In this document: piece by piece, positions 6,146-48,794 of the stretch
Layout: every line of letters starts with the position of its first letter
How positions within the stretch are numbered: the stretch's first letter is position 1
Origin: Paenibacillus swuensis
GTDB lineage: Bacteria; Bacillota; Bacilli; Paenibacillales; DY6
Length of the DNA: 64,000 nucleotides
Assembly: GCF_001644605.1 (NCBI RefSeq)
Contig: NZ_CP011388.1
Span: 1,202,501 to 1,266,500, forward strand
Reading direction: 5' to 3'
Notes under the pieces: generated by a model
Seen by the model: the letters and a program-made list of their open reading frames with translations, nothing else
What the model was told of the DNA's origin: nothing
Database searches by the model: none
Position numbers and translations under genes: made by a program

Positions 6146-8263
6146 TACGCTACCTGGTGAAATTGAATATCGATAGAGGGCGAAGGAGATTGGCTCCGTC
6201 AACTGGAAGGTTCCCCTTCCTTCTTCGGCAATTAAATCCTCAAATTTAGCATCGCGACCCGCCTCCAACTGCCCTGTCGGCCCCTCCTGCTTCAACAAAC
6301 ATTGGAGCTTAAGACGTATGCGGCCCCCTGGCAGATCCCAAAGTTGCATCTGTGCAGCAGCCTTATCCGTACGCTCCCTGAAGAGGAGCAGATACCCCTC
6401 CTGGTCATTCAGCACAGACTGGAATCCTGTCCAACCCGTTCCGCTTGGCTCTTCACCGATGGGCATAATTCTTCCCGAATGGATTCTCTCCTGATGCAAC
6501 CGATAGGAGTTGATTGCCTGTTCCAACAGCTGTCGGCTCCCGCTGCCAAGTCCTCTCAATTCCATCCATGCCAGAGGATTAGCGAACATCGTCACTGCGA
6601 AGGAGTAGAGGATCCCGCAACTTGCCGGGGCAAGCGAATCGTCCCCGTACACTTCCTTATTGCGATCTACATTAAGAAACTCCATCTGAAACAGCTGTGC
6701 AGGGACATACCTCGCCAGCATCCACAAGTTGCGCAAGGTGAAGTGAGGATAGTACACTCCCCAGTCGGTATAGCGATTCTCTAGGAACAGTCCGCCGTAC
6801 TGAGTCTGACCGAAGTAGCCAAGTCTCACCTCATTCGTCGTATCCTGGTTAAAATACACATTCCCGCTCGTAGCCGTCAGCACGGTCTGCATCATGCTGA
6901 GCAGATTCCTCTCGCCCGTCTTCGACCTCAGTTGTATGCCATCCAGCTTGAAGTGTTCAATGCCGTAATCTCGATAAAGCGAGATCAACGTCTCCGCATC
7001 CGTTTCCCAAAGGCGATAGTCATCCCCCGCATCCGGGGAAAACCATAAGCCCAACCGTATTCCAAGCTCGCGGGCCTTCGCTGCGACAGGGTCAAGACCC
7101 CGTGGAAACCGCTCTTGGTGAACCGACCAGAAGTCCTCCTCATCCTCTGAATTGTAATAGCTTCCCCATCGTCCGCCAGGGTTCACGGAATTCATGGTTG
7201 TCCCTTGTTGCCAGCCGTCATCAATCTGCAAATGCGTGATACCAAGACTTGCTGCAATTTCCAACTCCTGCAGGATGAACAGCTCGTTCACCGCGCTGTC
7301 TCTGTTTCGGTCTCCCCAGGTATTGCTCATAATGAAGCAGTCCCGGTGGGGGATAAAGCTTCGGCGGAGCAGGTGATAATCACCTGTGACCTGCAGCCCT
7401 CCAAGCTCCGAACCATCATAGACTGCCAAGGCGGTCGAATAGCAGGAGATATACTGATCATCACCATCATTCTCCATTGTCAGGTTCGCATATTCCGCTT
7501 CACTAAGCCCTGACCCAGCCACGAACAGTTCTCTACCCCGCCATTCAAAGTCCGCTCCGGGGCTGCCCAGCTGGGCTTCAGAGGGAGGGCTCTCCTTGAT
7601 GATGAGCAAGCCGGAATTCCTTAAGCTGCTCCTGAGATACAACAGATTGCCTCGCAGCTTGCGCCGATCGTTCGGATATATTAGCCCTCGTTGTTCGCTA
7701 ACGAGATTATTATTCGTATCTGTCCGGTCGGTTATCGCTATGCAATGCCAAGCCGTATGAATATCCTTTAATGAAATATAGTCCACATAATGCGCAGGCA
7801 AGGCATGCCTCTCCGTGTTGTTAGTATCCAGCATAACTCCTCGGGTCTCGGAATTGTTCGTCTGACGGTCTAACCCTTCAGACTGCGCACGAGTACCACC
7901 CTTCTGTCTGCGCATGCGGAGCTCTTGCCGGATTATAGGGGTAGTAGGCGCAATGCGCACGAGCAACTGCCAAGCCTTCTCTCCACTGAAAAAAGATACC
8001 GTAACCGTAAGCTGACGTTCGCCTATACCCATGTCGTCCCAAGTGTCGCCTTGCACATGGACAGAACCGTCAGAAGCATAGGCATCCGAGATGCTGGTTA
8101 CTAGGAGCTCTCCATCCACCCATTCATTCCCATCGTTCTTGTTGGTTATGGACTGGGTATACCAATGACCGCCTTCAAGCCGCCATATTCGTTCCACTAG
8201 AGAATTGCCTACCGTAAGTAAACTTCCGTCCCATTCCCAATAGCAGTCTTCCAGTTTCATCAT
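6137..8263 (-). CDS. GH36-type alpha-galactosidase (intracellular)
   Basis: The 708-aa product is a glycoside hydrolase of clan GH-D, family 36 type. An N-terminal beta-sandwich precedes the (beta/alpha)8 barrel, recognised by SLGITHLQIDDGWQ, by LGIRLGLWFSP, and by HFKLDG, which holds the likely nucleophile Asp; the ENRYTDWG region occupies the acid/base strand. There is no signal peptide, so it acts in the cytoplasm on imported alpha-galactosides (inferred). The start at 8263 (MMKLEDCYW) follows GGGAG; a longer frame from 8332 would cover the promoter region and is rejected. It is divergent from an AraC regulator 102 bp away, its likely controller. The exact substrate is uncertain. Confidence 0.88.
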   Translation of the reverse strand: MMKLEDCYWEWDGSLLTVGNSLVERIWRLEGGHWYTQSITNKNDGNEWVDGELLVTSISDAYASDGSVHVQGDTWDDMGIGERQLTVTVSFFSGEKAWQLLVRIAPTTPIIRQELRMRRQKGGTRAQSEGLDRQTNNSETRGVMLDTNNTERHALPAHYVDYISLKDIHTAWHCIAITDRTDTNNNLVSEQRGLIYPNDRRKLRGNLLYLRSSLRNSGLLIIKESPPSEAQLGSPGADFEWRGRELFVAGSGLSEAEYANLTMENDGDDQYISCYSTALAVYDGSELGGLQVTGDYHLLRRSFIPHRDCFIMSNTWGDRNRDSAVNELFILQELEIAASLGITHLQIDDGWQQGTTMNSVNPGGRWGSYYNSEDEEDFWSVHQERFPRGLDPVAAKARELGIRLGLWFSPDAGDDYRLWETDAETLISLYRDYGIEHFKLDGIQLRSKTGERNLLSMMQTVLTATSGNVYFNQDTTNEVRLGYFGQTQYGGLFLENRYTDWGVYYPHFTLRNLWMLARYVPAQLFQMEFLNVDRNKEVYGDDSLAPASCGILYSFAVTMFANPLAWMELRGLGSGSRQLLEQAINSYRLHQERIHSGRIMPIGEEPSGTGWTGFQSVLNDQEGYLLLFRERTDKAAAQMQLWDLPGGRIRLKLQCLLKQEGPTGQLEAGRDAKFEDLIAEEGRGTFQLTEPISFALYRYSISPGSVTG

Positions 8264-43515: not shown

Positions 43516-43857
43516 CTACAGAACGCTGGCCGCCTCTCCGACCCAAGTAACCAGCTGCGCGGAATCGAATCTGTCCCCCTTACGCAACTTTAGCGTCTTC
43601 CGTTCCGGAGGACCGTCGAACATGCTTTCCGGCAACTCCAGTCCGGTTGCATTAAAGATGGTAAAGCTGACCGCATCCTTGGATGTCGAGATGACGGCGG
43701 CGTATTTACCATTTTTCAGAAAATGCGGCTTCTTATACTGAATGCGTTCCTGCACATCCGGTATGGCCCGGTGGACCAGCTCGCGTAAACTCGTTGACAG
43801 TTCCAGTTGCCAAGGTTCCTTTAGTGCTTCAATAAATTCGGTTACTTCGTTACTCAT
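43516..43857 (-). CDS. DUF1801-domain protein
   Basis: The 113-aa protein matches the DUF1801 (YdhG/YjdI-like) fold: IPDVQERIQYKKPHFLKNG followed by YAAVISTSKDAVSFTIFNA and the C-terminal LKLRKGDRFD. Function is unknown; relatives often neighbour VOC and YciI genes, as here. It lies 24 bp downstream of a VOC gene on the same strand and is probably co-transcribed. GGAGCG-like ribosome site precedes the ATG. Confidence 0.85.
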   Translation of the reverse strand: MSNEVTEFIEALKEPWQLELSTSLRELVHRAIPDVQERIQYKKPHFLKNGKYAAVISTSKDAVSFTIFNATGLELPESMFDGPPERKTLKLRKGDRFDSAQLVTWVGEAASVL

Positions 43858-43881: not shown

Positions 43882-44304
43882 TTAGTTGGTTTGATTGGGA
43901 TTGCCTGTACTCGGCTGGGCAGTGATCATCCAAGATACGCCGTATTGATCCGAAAGCTCTCCATAGAGCATTCCCCAAGGCTGCAGTTCTAGAGGGTATT
44001 TCACATTGCCGCCAACCGCCAGCTTCGTGAAGGCTTCATTGGCTTCAGAATCTGTTTCGTACGTTACACTTAGTGAAATGCCGCGTCCTTGCGTAAACGG
44101 TTCAAATGAATCAGCCATGAGTAGTGAATTTCCTCCGGCAACAACCAGGCTCAAATGCATAACTTTGTCCTTAAACTCATGTTGTGCTCCCATTTGTTCG
44201 TGTGTCATGACGGACAGAATCTCTCCTCCGAGTGATTCTATGTAGAACTTGGCTTGCGCTCTTGCATCCTCTGACATAAGATAAGGGTTTACTTGTGCTC
44301 CCAT
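43882..44304 (-). CDS. VOC-family protein (PhnB/glyoxalase-like)
   Basis: The 140-aa product starting MGAQVNPYLMSEDARAQA is a PhnB-like VOC protein with the paired beta-alpha-beta-beta-beta modules (YIESLGGEILSVMTHEQMG; GGNVKYPLELQPWGMLYGEL; DQYGVSWMI). The metal ligands of true glyoxalases are not all evident, and the substrate is unknown. The start at 44304 matches the family N-terminus; longer in-frame starts exist at 44325 and 44385. It probably forms a unit with the DUF1801 gene. Confidence 0.87.
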   Translation of the reverse strand: MGAQVNPYLMSEDARAQAKFYIESLGGEILSVMTHEQMGAQHEFKDKVMHLSLVVAGGNSLLMADSFEPFTQGRGISLSVTYETDSEANEAFTKLAVGGNVKYPLELQPWGMLYGELSDQYGVSWMITAQPSTGNPNQTN

Positions 44305-44425
44305 ATTTCTCAACAACCTTTCCATTATGTTTTGTCCTACTAATAAATACGACGAATGACTACTGGTGAAATCGACAGAGGGCATAATATAAATCTATAT
44401 TTTTTTTCAAAATATTCTTAAAGCT

Positions 44426-45694
44426 TTAATTCAATTGTGCAAATTCACACTCAGCAGCCCGGTTCCATAAAAGCGCCCGTTCACGCTCATTCCGCGTCAA
44501 CGCCGCGGCGCGTTCAAATTCAACGCGCGCTTCATCGTACCTCCCCAGCTTGACCAACAAATCACCACGCACGCTCGGCAGCAAATGATATTCCTTCAAC
44601 GAGGGCACCGCATAGAGCTCGTCGATGATTTGCAGACCGAAGGCCGGTCCGAAAGCCATGGATATCGCGACCGCCCGGTTTAACTCCACGATCGGGGACG
44701 GACTCACTGTGGATAGCGCCTCATACAGAGCCGCAATCTTGATCCAATCCGTCTCCGCGACACTCGCCGCCTGCGCATGGCAAGCCGAGATGGAGGCTTG
44801 CAGCGCGTAGGGACCCAGCGGCTGGCCAAGTTTGCGGCATCGCTCCAATGCGCTTAATCCGCGGCGGATAAGGAGTTGATCCCATTTGGCCCTATTTTGA
44901 TCCATGAGGAGAACAGGTTCTCCCTTAGCGTTAACACGCGTCTTCATCCGGGAAGATTGAATTTCCATGAGGGCGACCAGCCCGTGGATTTCCGGCACCC
45001 GTGGAGCGATCTCCGCCAGCACCCTTCCCAATCGCAGCGCCTCCTGGCACAACAGCGGACGGGTCCAATGTTCACCGGAAGTTGCCGAGTAGCCTTCGTT
45101 AAACATCAGGTAAATCACCTCGAATACAGCGGACAAGCGATCCCGCAGCAGCTCCTTTCCCACCGGCACTTCAAAAGGAACCTTTGCGGCACTGAGCGTT
45201 CTCTTCGCCCGGACAATGCGCTGAGCAATGGTCGTTTCGGCCGCCAGGAACGAACGAGCGATTTCATCGGTCGTCAACCCGCATAAGAGGCGCAACGTCA
45301 AGGCAACGCGGGCATCCTGGGATAACACCGGATGGCAGGTCATGAAGATCAGGCGAAGGAGATCGTCGCCAATCTCCCCGTCCAATGCCGAATCGATGTC
45401 ATCTTCGGTATATAAATCCGCACCATGCCCAATCTCCGCGTATTTCTGGTCACGCAGCTTGTTCCTGCGGATCCCGTCGATGGCGCGCCGCTTCGCCGTC
45501 GTCATCAACCATGCCGCCGGGTTGTCCGGGATGCCCGTCTCCGGCCATCGATCCAGAGCGATCACCAACGCATCCTGCGCAAGATCCTCGGCTACACCCA
45601 CATCCCGGACTATACGCGTTAATGCGGCGATCAGTTTAGCTGATTCCATTCGCCATATGGCATCAATGGTACGATGTGTTTGGTGCAGACTCAC
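44426..45694 (-). CDS. ECF42-type RNA polymerase sigma factor with C-terminal extension
   Basis: The 422-aa protein has sigma region 2 (VGVAEDLAQDALVIALDRWP, PAAWLMTTAKRRAID) and region 4 (LTTDEIARSFLAAETTIAQR), then a long C-terminal domain of about 230 residues with TPR-like helices, including FNEGYSATSGEHWTR. This layout with a DGPF/YciI partner defines group ECF42. No anti-sigma gene is nearby; the C-terminal extension is thought to regulate activity in this group. It starts at GTG, overlapping the yciI-like stop codon (GTGA). It probably directs its own operon through the TGTCGA promoter at 47044-47072. Confidence 0.93.
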   Translation of the reverse strand: MSLHQTHRTIDAIWRMESAKLIAALTRIVRDVGVAEDLAQDALVIALDRWPETGIPDNPAAWLMTTAKRRAIDGIRRNKLRDQKYAEIGHGADLYTEDDIDSALDGEIGDDLLRLIFMTCHPVLSQDARVALTLRLLCGLTTDEIARSFLAAETTIAQRIVRAKRTLSAAKVPFEVPVGKELLRDRLSAVFEVIYLMFNEGYSATSGEHWTRPLLCQEALRLGRVLAEIAPRVPEIHGLVALMEIQSSRMKTRVNAKGEPVLLMDQNRAKWDQLLIRRGLSALERCRKLGQPLGPYALQASISACHAQAASVAETDWIKIAALYEALSTVSPSPIVELNRAVAISMAFGPAFGLQIIDELYAVPSLKEYHLLPSVRGDLLVKLGRYDEARVEFERAAALTRNERERALLWNRAAECEFAQLN

Positions 45695-46125
45695 GCTTTT
45701 CTCTGCGCCTCCAACTGTTCACGAAGGGCTGCATCTTTCGCCAACGTCTCGGGATTGTCCACCAAGTCCTCCATCTCATATACCTGTCTGAGCTCAATCT
45801 CGCCTTGCCCGAAGCCGTGCGGGTCCGGCATACGCATCGCCCATTCAACGGCTTCCTCCCTGGACTTGACCTCAATTAACGTATAGCCCGCGATCATTTC
45901 TTTAGCCTCCGTAAAGGGGCCGTCCATGATCTTCGGTTTGCCTCCCGGTTCCGGATAGGAAATCCGGATGCCGCCGGAGCTTGGCATCAATCCGTCCGCA
46001 GCGAGCAGCACGCCGGCTTTGACCAGTTCTTCGTTATACTTTTGCATCGCGTCGATCAGCTCTTGGCTTGGCGGTTGGCCCGCCTCTGAATCCGTTGTCG
46101 CTTTCACAATCATCATAAATCTCAT
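45691..46125 (-). CDS. YciI/DGPF-domain protein, ECF42 partner
   Basis: The 144-aa protein has the YCII fold with the MDGPFTEAKE motif that names DGPF proteins, and the N-terminal RFMMIVKATTDSEAG. The function is unknown; its genes accompany ECF42 sigma factors across bacteria. TAAGGAGGA precedes the ATG. It lies between the hydrolase gene and the sigma factor gene, overlapping the latter by 4 bp, which indicates coupled translation. Confidence 0.93.
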   Translation of the reverse strand: MRFMMIVKATTDSEAGQPPSQELIDAMQKYNEELVKAGVLLAADGLMPSSGGIRISYPEPGGKPKIMDGPFTEAKEMIAGYTLIEVKSREEAVEWAMRMPDPHGFGQGEIELRQVYEMEDLVDNPETLAKDAALREQLEAQRKA

Positions 46126-46137
46126 GTCTGTTCCTCC

Positions 46138-47001
46138 TTATTTAGTTAACTTATTATCCGTGGTGAAAAAAGCGGTAAGCTCAACCGAAATCATCTTGGC
46201 ATGGATCTTCTTGGTGTGGCCTAATCCTTTTTTACTCACTAACTGCGCGTTCGGGAGTGTGTTGGCAAGCGCCTGAGCAGCATGCCGCAAGGATGCCGGG
46301 CTTTCCGTGCCTTCCATGACTAACGTGGGCATGGTAACCGTTCGCCACAACGCCGCAGGCAAAGCTTTGCCCTCCATAAAGCCATCCAGTAAGGTTGCGT
46401 CATACGGCAGCGTATGGGCGACGGCCATTAGATTCGCCCACACGCCCGGCATCATACGCATCATAGTGACAATGAAGGCTGGCGCTCCCATGCCCTGGGT
46501 CATGAAATATTTAATGGCGTCCGCCCGGCGATCGTTTGCGATGAGCTCTGTTACCTGGGCCCGGAAGTCGTCCGGCGGTTTGCGATCCGAAGGATTCACC
46601 ACGAACGGAGGCTCATGCAAGGCCAGTTGCGTGATGTGGAGTCCCTTCGCGGCGGCTTGCAGGGCAAGGGCCGCGCCGGAGGATAAGCCCCATACCTTCG
46701 CCGAGCCGCCCGCTTCTTCGATGAGGGCACCCAAATCTTCAATTTCGCGCTCGACCGCATAAGGTTGAGTGTCTCCGCTATCCCCGCGTCCGCGGCGGTC
46801 GTAGGTGTAGACCGTAAACTGCTCTTTCAACTGTTCCGCTAATTGGACAAGCCCCGGGAAAAGCCGGTAACTGAATGCGCCTGCGACCAGGATGAGGGCC
46901 GGTCCTTGACCTATCCGGTCATAAGCAATGCGGGTTCCGTCTTTGGATATGACGGTGTACGTGGTTTGTTTCGCTTGTTTATCCATTTGGTGTGCCGGCA
47001 T
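46138..47001 (-). CDS. Alpha/beta hydrolase, first gene of the ECF42 operon
   Basis: The 287-aa product has the hydrolase fold: oxyanion strand LILVAGAFSY, YTYDRRGRGDSG, nucleophile elbow GLSSG (Ser107) and a C-terminal GLGHTKKIH with the likely catalytic His. The substrate is unknown. The start at 47001 has GAAGGA 6 nt upstream; a longer frame to 47082 would run across the promoter and is rejected. It lies 12 bp upstream of the YciI gene in one operon. Confidence 0.9.
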   Translation of the reverse strand: MPAHQMDKQAKQTTYTVISKDGTRIAYDRIGQGPALILVAGAFSYRLFPGLVQLAEQLKEQFTVYTYDRRGRGDSGDTQPYAVEREIEDLGALIEEAGGSAKVWGLSSGAALALQAAAKGLHITQLALHEPPFVVNPSDRKPPDDFRAQVTELIANDRRADAIKYFMTQGMGAPAFIVTMMRMMPGVWANLMAVAHTLPYDATLLDGFMEGKALPAALWRTVTMPTLVMEGTESPASLRHAAQALANTLPNAQLVSKKGLGHTKKIHAKMISVELTAFFTTDNKLTK

Positions 47002-47090: not shown

Positions 47091-47276
47091 TTAATTTTTT
47101 TTCAACATTTCCCTATGATCTTTGAGATCCGCTTCCAAGGCTAGGATTCTTGGATCTTGCTGCAGATTCTCCGACTCCGTGTTTTGAACCGGTTCAACCT
47201 CGTCCTCCCTAACTATTGCCTCCACCTCTGTTTCCACATCCACCGGCTTGAATCCTGCAATGCAGTCTTTGCGCAT
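47091..47276 (-). CDS. Unknown 61-aa acidic protein, putative ECF42 regulon member
   Basis: The product MRKDCIAGFKPVDVETEVEA and on is strongly acidic in the middle and ends in a charged, probably coiled-coil helix (RILALEADLKDHREMLKKN). It has no signal, membrane helix or recognised family. It is supported by a strong ribosome site (GGGAGG, about 9 nt from the ATG) and by an ECF42-like promoter just upstream. It ends 18 bp before the second, stronger ECF42 promoter. A role in the sigma factor's stress response or in its control is inference only. Confidence 0.7.
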   Translation of the reverse strand: MRKDCIAGFKPVDVETEVEAIVREDEVEPVQNTESENLQQDPRILALEADLKDHREMLKKN

Positions 47277-47338
47277 AATCGATTTCCTCCCTCACTCGTA
47301 TGAGACGTGTTCCCGCTTTAGGTTCTGTCTCTAATTAA

Positions 47339-47367
47339 ACTACGAACGGGATCCAACGAAATCGACA
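47339..47367 (-). promoter_or_regulatory. Second ECF42-like promoter, upstream of the 61-aa gene
   Basis: TGTCGA (47362-47367) and CGTAGT (47339-47344) are 17 bp apart on the minus strand, and both promoters share the upstream CCCGTTCGT context. The -10 differs at one position from CGTC. Confidence 0.6.
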
Positions 47368-47502
47368 AACGGACACCTACTTCTGTTTCTTCATTAATGA
47401 GTTGCTTGCTCAACTGCTAAGTACTAAATGTGTTTCAGCTCCGATGCTGGGTTATCCCGAAGAATCAGGCGAAAATAATTTCCGTTCTTTTCAAAAAATC
47501 AC

Positions 47503-47555
47503 TTGTAATAAGAACATTTGTTTGGTATTATATGACATATACAGAACGTTTGTTC
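47503..47555 (+). promoter_or_regulatory. Promoter with two LexA (SOS) boxes
   Basis: TTGTAA (47503-47508) and TATTAT (47526-47531) are 17 bp apart. GAACATTTGTTT (47512-47523) fills the spacer and GAACGTTTGTTC (47544-47555), a perfect GAAC-N4-GTTC dyad, lies over the transcript start. This is the layout of Gram-positive LexA-repressed promoters. Confidence 0.75.
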
Positions 47556-47583
47556 CTATATTGCGTAAGGGGGGGTGAGGATT

Positions 47584-48495
47584 GTGTCTACTCATGTAGT
47601 AACTTTCGATCAATTTAAGCGCAAATATCATGATGAAGCTTCATGTGTTCCCATCCTGATCTCAACCAAATGGCCCAACGGTTACCGCTGTCCACGTTGT
47701 GATTGCGTTGATGCCTATGTTATCACTACACGTCGGCTACCTCTGTATGAATGCCGCAACTGCAAGTATCAAGCTTCTCTTCTCGTGGGGACGATTATGC
47801 AAGGAAGCCGCACCTTACTTCATAAATGGTTTCAAGCTTTATTTCTCATCGCTAACCCCTCAGGTTCAATTAACGCGGTGCAACTATCAACCATCATTCA
47901 AGTCACGTATAAGACGGCCTGGTTAATCCTACACAAACTTCGCCATGCCATTCAGCAAGGAGATGCGCAGCAGCTACTCACAGGGCTTGTCGAAGTCATC
48001 TCTGCTGAATACAATCCGTGCAATTTTCATATTAAAGGTTTTAAGACGATCCGGAACGAGCAGCCATTTGTTGGGGGAGCTTCTCTTAACTTTTATGGTG
48101 AGGTTTCCTATGTCAAGCTGAAGCATGTTTTTATGCCGAAACATCATCCGAACAAAGAGCTTAGCTATTGGGATTATTCCAACTTCATTGAGACTCATGT
48201 AAGTAGTTCTGTCCGAGTTCCTTTTATTCATTACGGTTCCAAAAAATATAACGCATGCGACACCTTAAATATCATTTGTGATTCTGTTCCTGTTAGAATA
48301 AACGAGCGATATTACGGAGTAAGCGACAAGCATTTACAATCGTATCTGGATGAAGTATCCTATCGCATTAATTATTCACTGAAACCAAACCGTGCGGTGT
48401 CGAAATTATTTCGGCTGTTCATTGATACTCCTGCTGTTACTTATAAACAACTCATTTCACGCAAACCGATGTGCTTACATTTACAGGTTGCCTAA
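47584..48495 (+). CDS. IS1595-family transposase-like protein with degenerate active site
   Basis: The 303-aa product has the IS1595 N-terminal zinc ribbon (CPRCDCVDAY...CRNCKY) and the following helical region (VTYKTAWLILHKLRHAI), and ends with YYGVSDKHLQSYLDEVSYRIN as in the family. The catalytic segments are altered: the usual VEVDETYIGG reads VEVISAEYNPCN, and the TDGW-type second Asp region reads FIHYGSKKYNA, so neither Asp is present. The segment around the third catalytic site is also shortened. The frame is intact. It is probably unable to transpose alone and may be a DNA-binding derivative. GTG 47584 is preferred over 47575 because of the GGGGG spacing. Confidence 0.75.
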   Translation: MSTHVVTFDQFKRKYHDEASCVPILISTKWPNGYRCPRCDCVDAYVITTRRLPLYECRNCKYQASLLVGTIMQGSRTLLHKWFQALFLIANPSGSINAVQLSTIIQVTYKTAWLILHKLRHAIQQGDAQQLLTGLVEVISAEYNPCNFHIKGFKTIRNEQPFVGGASLNFYGEVSYVKLKHVFMPKHHPNKELSYWDYSNFIETHVSSSVRVPFIHYGSKKYNACDTLNIICDSVPVRINERYYGVSDKHLQSYLDEVSYRINYSLKPNRAVSKLFRLFIDTPAVTYKQLISRKPMCLHLQVA

Positions 48496-48691
48496 CTCAC
48501 GGACAAACATTTTTTACAATTCATCTTTCCTTCTCTAAACATCTTTACTTCTATTAACACATTAACTCTCATTTTCCAGTTATCACTTCATTGCTTTCTT
48601 CTATCACATCACATCACATCATCACATCACATCACATCATAAAAGCATAAAGCAAATCACATTACACCACATCACACCACACCACTGAGCG
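48496..48691. repeat. G-poor tail with (ATCAC)n microsatellite inside the IS1595-like element
   Basis: Between the stop codon and the right inverted repeat the plus strand is almost free of G. It includes a run of ATCAC/ATCATC units at about 48603-48640 and ACACC units at 48661-48685. No gene is present. Confidence 0.75.
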
Positions 48692-48794
48692 TTCGGGATA
48701 ACCCAGCATTCCAGTTCAAATAGGTAAACGAACACCCCACCTAAAGAAATGTAAACCCTAGTGAATCACCCAAATTTTATATACTTTCTATCAC

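Follow-up and report, generated by a model that had tools for sequence, protein, structure and literature searches.

Gene content and promoter sites of the locus

The window, that is, the whole 64,000-nucleotide stretch of Paenibacillus swuensis DNA analysed here, encodes a sigma factor (44426-45694) flanked by further genes on the same, minus strand. YciI1, an intact DGPF copy matching PF03795 (YCII; 45691-46125), lies directly upstream of the sigma factor gene and is preceded by an alpha/beta hydrolase gene (Abhydrolase_6; 46138-47001, start ATG at 47001) and by a 61-codon ORF, here termed MINI (47091-47276). Downstream are a gene of the VOC/3-dmu-9_3-mt family (43882-44304, with a probable start at 44304 in an ORF that opens at 44385) and a DUF1801 gene (43516-43857). 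MINI is preceded by an ECF42-type promoter-like site with the pattern TGTCGA-N17-CGTAGT (P1, 47339-47367), read on the minus strand from 47367 to 47339 as TGTCGATTTCGTTGGATCCCGTTCGTAGT. The MINI ATG is 91 nt past the start of this site, and a GGAGG sequence is followed by 9 nt and then the ATG. The earlier note had reported this promoter, ribosome site and gene, all of which were located at the positions it gave, together with a TGTCGA-N17-CGTCGT site ahead of the hydrolase-YciI-sigma operon, which was recovered at 47072-47044 (P2). A third site near the sigma factor gene, absent from that note, has the same pattern as P2 and lies ahead of the VOC and DUF1801 genes (P3, minus strand, 44377-44349). 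Upstream of P1, as a neighbour outside the locus proper, is an IS1595-family element on the plus strand (47433-48720) with 36-nt imperfect inverted repeats; the genome holds eight further near-full-length copies (85-94% identity) and many fragments, and short CATCA/CACAT-rich repeats occur within the element, 3' of the transposase gene (48600-48680).

The sigma factor matches the models for sigma-70 regions 2 and 4 (PF04542 and PF08281, both above cut-off) and carries a C-terminal extension of about 250 aa with a DUF6596 domain (residues 186-286, 121 bits) and a TPR_2 match (residues 376-402) that is below the family cut-off. Features of ECF42 factors, namely an extended C-terminus of about 200 aa that contains TPR repeats, a neighbouring YCII/DGPF gene and TGTCG(A)...CGTC target promoters, are found here as the long TPR-like extension, YciI1 directly upstream and three sites at the locus; the ECF42 name rests on these features and the sigma regions, not on a group-profile score. 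According to the available sections of a review (PMC8999054), the TPR-rich extension is required for the activity of ECF42 factors, and its binding partner has not been identified, with the conserved YCII protein suspected. Targets of RpoE10 have TGTCG...CGTC promoters and include glyoxalase-like genes, as stated in the accessible part of PMC6180224.

Genome-wide, the promoter pattern has 9 matches versus 10 for the reversed control, so the count gives the motif no significance and its support comes from position and comparison. Three of the nine matches, each ahead of a gene, share a strand and fall in a stretch of about 3 kb around the sigma factor gene, and at least one promoter-like site was detected in 104 of 108 homologous sigma loci (described below). 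The motif is credible because it is clustered at this locus and recurrent in related ones. At least two sites lie upstream of the sigma factor gene in other loci as well (for example, L030, L031, L041 and L109). A fourth TGTCGA-N17-CGTCGT site in the P. swuensis genome, distant from the locus (G000:C1:2239797-2239825), stands shortly before a DoxX_2 gene (PF13564), which on this basis is probably a further target of the sigma factor. One homologous locus (L055, about 7237-8251) has a tandem duplication of promoter and VOC gene, with the two promoter sites identical.

P1 differs from P2 and P3 in its -10 element. Among 195 promoter-like sites in the 108 homologous loci, CGTA occurs once at -10; this sole other case is a TGTCGA-N17-CGTAGT site before a RibD_C (reductase-like) gene, 3100 nt upstream of the sigma factor gene in L095. 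A CGTTGT site occupies a similar place in L037. CGTA is thus rare but does occur, and P1 may be weak without being dead; recognition by the sigma factor probably persists. The MINI stop codon is separated from P2 by 18 bases, and no terminator-like site was found between the MINI ORF and the hydrolase operon, so a transcript from P1 should run into hydrolase-YciI1-sigma.

MINI derives from a second DGPF gene

The 61-aa product of MINI has a net charge of about -7.4, nearly all of it in residues 1-40. It has no match among the Pfam and NCBIfam models, and a search of the genome with PF03795 returned YciI1 only. Scanning genome contigs with the 61-aa protein turned up a single relative, from Paenibacillus sp. 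Root444D2 (L002, the same place as L003); the hydrolase gene of that locus (L002:3041-3851) is split into two frames by a frameshift or sequencing error. Against 392 genomes of the order, 17 genomes match at E values up to 0.1, its own included. Searches of two families gave matches in 9 of 104 and 17 of 394 genomes, which are partly shared with the order search and include both of the matches dropped as chance, a 942-aa coiled-coil frame (L012) and a ParB-like frame (L018). The other 14 matching loci all encode full-length YciI/DGPF proteins, each with a TGTCG...CGT site upstream (14/14). Homologues next to other ECF42-type sigma genes, the search that the earlier note had called for, therefore exist, the first 14 true ones standing behind TGTCGA...CGT; its suggestion of a small acidic partner other than DGPF gives way, since these relatives are full-length YciI/DGPF proteins and MINI is an internally deleted copy.

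Around the matches found with MINI, the usual order is promoter-hydrolase-YciI1-sigma-promoter-YciI2-(VOC)-DUF1801, in which YciI2 is a second YciI-like gene. A YciI-like gene follows the sigma factor gene in 21 of 24 such loci, and in 19 of those 21 a promoter-like site lies 86-124 nt before its start. The 61-aa protein scores 25.7 bits against a profile of 46 full-length YciI2 sequences, all from loci that had been located via the sigma gene and not via the remnant; of 20,000 shuffles, the highest-scoring reached 12.8 bits. This score rules out a chance ORF; a new protein family is ruled out by the homologues, which are YciI/DGPF proteins. Aligned with the 144-aa L002 protein, MINI reads as MR, a 72-column gap, KDCIAGFKPVDVETEVEAI, an 11-column gap and the remaining residues up to the C-terminus. 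Relative to YciI2 it lacks two blocks, one of about 72 codons following codon 2 and an internal one of about 11 codons, each an in-frame loss, and the DGPF region is among the deleted parts; what is kept comprises the start MR, the YCII core fragment IAGF-PVDV-TE-EAI and the C-terminal tail. Profile score and alignment show that MINI descends from a YciI2 gene: as aligned, it is such a gene of about 144 codons that two in-frame deletions have reduced to 61. Little of the apparent novelty is left, MINI being a shortened DGPF gene within a locus of an established type.

YciI1 is retained and YciI2 is labile across homologous loci

So that the remnant would not bias the sample, loci were collected by their sigma protein, giving 108 loci at 64-85% identity in genomes of the order; left out were the P. 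swuensis genome itself, five partial matches (G225 twice, G205 twice and G112) and 22 matches at 32-34% identity. YciI1 lies directly upstream of the sigma factor gene in 104 of the 108. A YciI-like gene is present within 1.6 kb downstream of the sigma factor gene in 63 and absent from 45, several of the stretches being cut by contig ends (for example, L096, L100, L104, L141 and L171). A promoter-like site lies within 160 nt before 39 of these 63 genes, at a distance from the start of 49-137 nt (median 96) compared with 91 nt in MINI. The promoter, leader length and ribosome site of MINI are those of YciI2 genes.

In the window, the slot downstream of the sigma factor gene is occupied by VOC-DUF1801 behind P3 and YciI2 is absent there; the remnant is found on the upstream side of the hydrolase gene. 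A profile search of all frames in the 108 loci and the window, many of the stretches ending about 3.2 kb upstream of the sigma factor gene or at contig ends, revealed no YciI2-like frame outside the two usual slots other than the window's own; descent of MINI from a different gene upstream of the hydrolase was rejected on this result. The same 61-codon remnant was found in no second genome among those searched, in which its genus and family are represented by its own genome alone. The YciI2 slot is labile elsewhere, being split by a frameshift in L163 and lacking the tail in L094. In L096 (G338), the YciI2 gene, which lies about 1280-1650 nt past the sigma start, encodes 90 aa after an in-frame loss of about 54 codons, as read from one assembly unchecked against reads.

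Unequal wear of core and tail

The retained segments of MINI were scored against 55 reference proteins (47 sigma-anchored and 8 from loci found with MINI). Few references score lower than MINI in the core fragment (4/55) or the middle segment (1/55), whereas 44 of 55 score lower in the tail. The tail-minus-core contrast of 2.06 in MINI is higher than in any of the references (mean 0.15, sd 0.58, maximum 1.96; n = 55). Permutation over 58 columns gave p 0.003 for this contrast, a value too favourable to the tail because the middle segment aligns uncertainly and it was the tail that led to the remnant. The three known internal deletions (two in MINI, one in L096) are all in frame, which would occur by chance about once in 27; counted after the fact, this is a weak hint.

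Full-length YciI2, modelled with AlphaFold2 on a three-sequence alignment (mean pLDDT 61.6), is predicted as E-H-E-E-E-H-E followed by a tail helix at residues 125-143. The model of the 61-aa protein (mean pLDDT 63.6) has helices at residues 33-39 and 42-60, the latter with pLDDT of about 85-87, and no strand. Alignment and model agree that the ferredoxin-like core with its DGPF region is missing, and on the predicted structure the remnant cannot form the YCII fold.

Interpretation of the remnant

From the sequence comparisons, we consider that the 61-aa ORF is probably a relic of the second DGPF gene of the locus, YciI2, still transcribed from P1. The YciI2 gene would have moved upstream of the hydrolase and lost its fold, such that its product today would be no more than an acidic, unfolded peptide bearing a single helix. 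It would keep its promoter and tail helix, though probably not its original job, and P1, its transcript entering hydrolase-YciI1-sigma, would act as an extra autoregulatory promoter. The YciI2 homology, the YciI2-like distance from promoter to start, the empty usual slot, the lability of that slot, YciI1 as the sole PF03795 gene of the genome, the worn core, the strandless model and the lack of a terminator before the operon make a relic the most likely reading. Against it stand the in-frame nature of both deletions and a tail as family-like as in intact members; a tail kept while the core is worn counts against a relic, since plain decay would not favour the tail.

The same unequal wear leaves room for a working tail peptide. 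MINI might be a functional mini-protein whose tail helix binds the target of the full-length YciI2 tail, perhaps the TPR-like sigma extension or YciI1, as a sigma-induced competitor or modulator. This is unlikely, although the tail-core contrast, the two in-frame deletions and the intact promoter and ribosome site of MINI are consistent with it, as are the independent in-frame loss in L096, where promoter, start and tail are likewise kept, and the suspicion of a YCII partner for the ECF42 extension in the review cited above. YciI2 is missing from many sigma loci in which YciI1 is kept, which indicates that sigma function does not depend on the tail; the MINI form occurs in no other locus, its -10 was seen once in 195 sites, and the uncertain middle alignment inflates the contrast. 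The earlier note had proposed an output or modulator of the sigma factor: promoter type, sigma link and membership of the regulon are supported, but the absence of YciI2 from 45 loci, with YciI1 kept in 104 of 108, speaks against the modulator role. A more specific version, which we regard as quite unlikely, is that YciI2 ends in a helix that forms a separable module binding the TPR-like ECF42 extension (or YciI1), and that at least two lineages (that of the window and that of L096) made sigma-induced mini-DGPF competitors retaining this module by separate in-frame deletions, giving built-in feedback on the sigma factor.

Selection might instead act on P1 alone, with the ORF a translated leader and the promoter a second, tunable autoregulatory start of the sigma operon. 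P1 is co-directional with the operon, the short terminator-free gap to P2 would permit readthrough, and multiple sites upstream of the sigma factor gene recur in other loci; however, this reading leaves the better-kept tail unexplained and sits poorly with the unusual -10 of P1, and we judge it very unlikely. Recruitment to the regulon of a small acidic coiled-coil protein that is unrelated or arose de novo, the reading in line with the earlier note, is extremely improbable. It fits the lack of Pfam and NCBIfam matches but is refuted by the alignment with full-length YciI2, to which both retained pieces are directly homologous.

With MINI read as a YciI2 relic, what looked like an orphan small protein tells of change at an ECF42 locus: beside the sigma factor, YciI1 is nearly always kept, and loss, relocation or shortening of the second copy is frequent. 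This conservation pattern points to YciI1, rather than YciI2 or the remnant, as the partner of the TPR-rich ECF42 extension, and so bears on the question, named in the available sections of PMC8999054, of which protein that extension binds. Were the tail module active, DGPF proteins shortened in this way would offer a natural means of probing the interaction with the extension.

Comparison with known systems

MINI shares with YciI2 of Paenibacillus sp. Root444D2 (L002:5770-6204) the start MR, the IAGY/F-DV-E-EA fragment, the C-terminal helix DPRILALEADL-D--MLK and an ECF42-type promoter about 90-100 nt upstream. It differs in having lost about 83 of 144 codons, in having no predicted YCII fold and in its position upstream of the hydrolase rather than downstream of the sigma factor gene. 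The shortened L096 gene resembles MINI in its in-frame internal deletion and in keeping promoter, start, an IAGY-like fragment and tail; in contrast to MINI, its deletion has other bounds, it is still downstream of the sigma factor gene and its remaining core is well kept. The only PDB sequence match to full-length YciI2 is PA1349 (PDB 1s7i; E 0.0037), which is also, weakly, its nearest solved fold (E 0.0043, low TM-score); the region matched by full-length YciI2 is gone from MINI, apart from one short piece. A literature search covering few subscription journals returned no report of ECF42 loci with a shortened DGPF protein, and the available parts of PMC8999054 and PMC6180224 describe none for the known loci of Streptomyces venezuelae (Sven_0747/Sven_4377), Pseudomonas putida (ECF-10) and Sinorhizobium meliloti (RpoE10). 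As described in those parts, these loci have in common with the window a TPR-rich C-terminal extension, a YCII neighbour and TGTCG...CGTC promoters.
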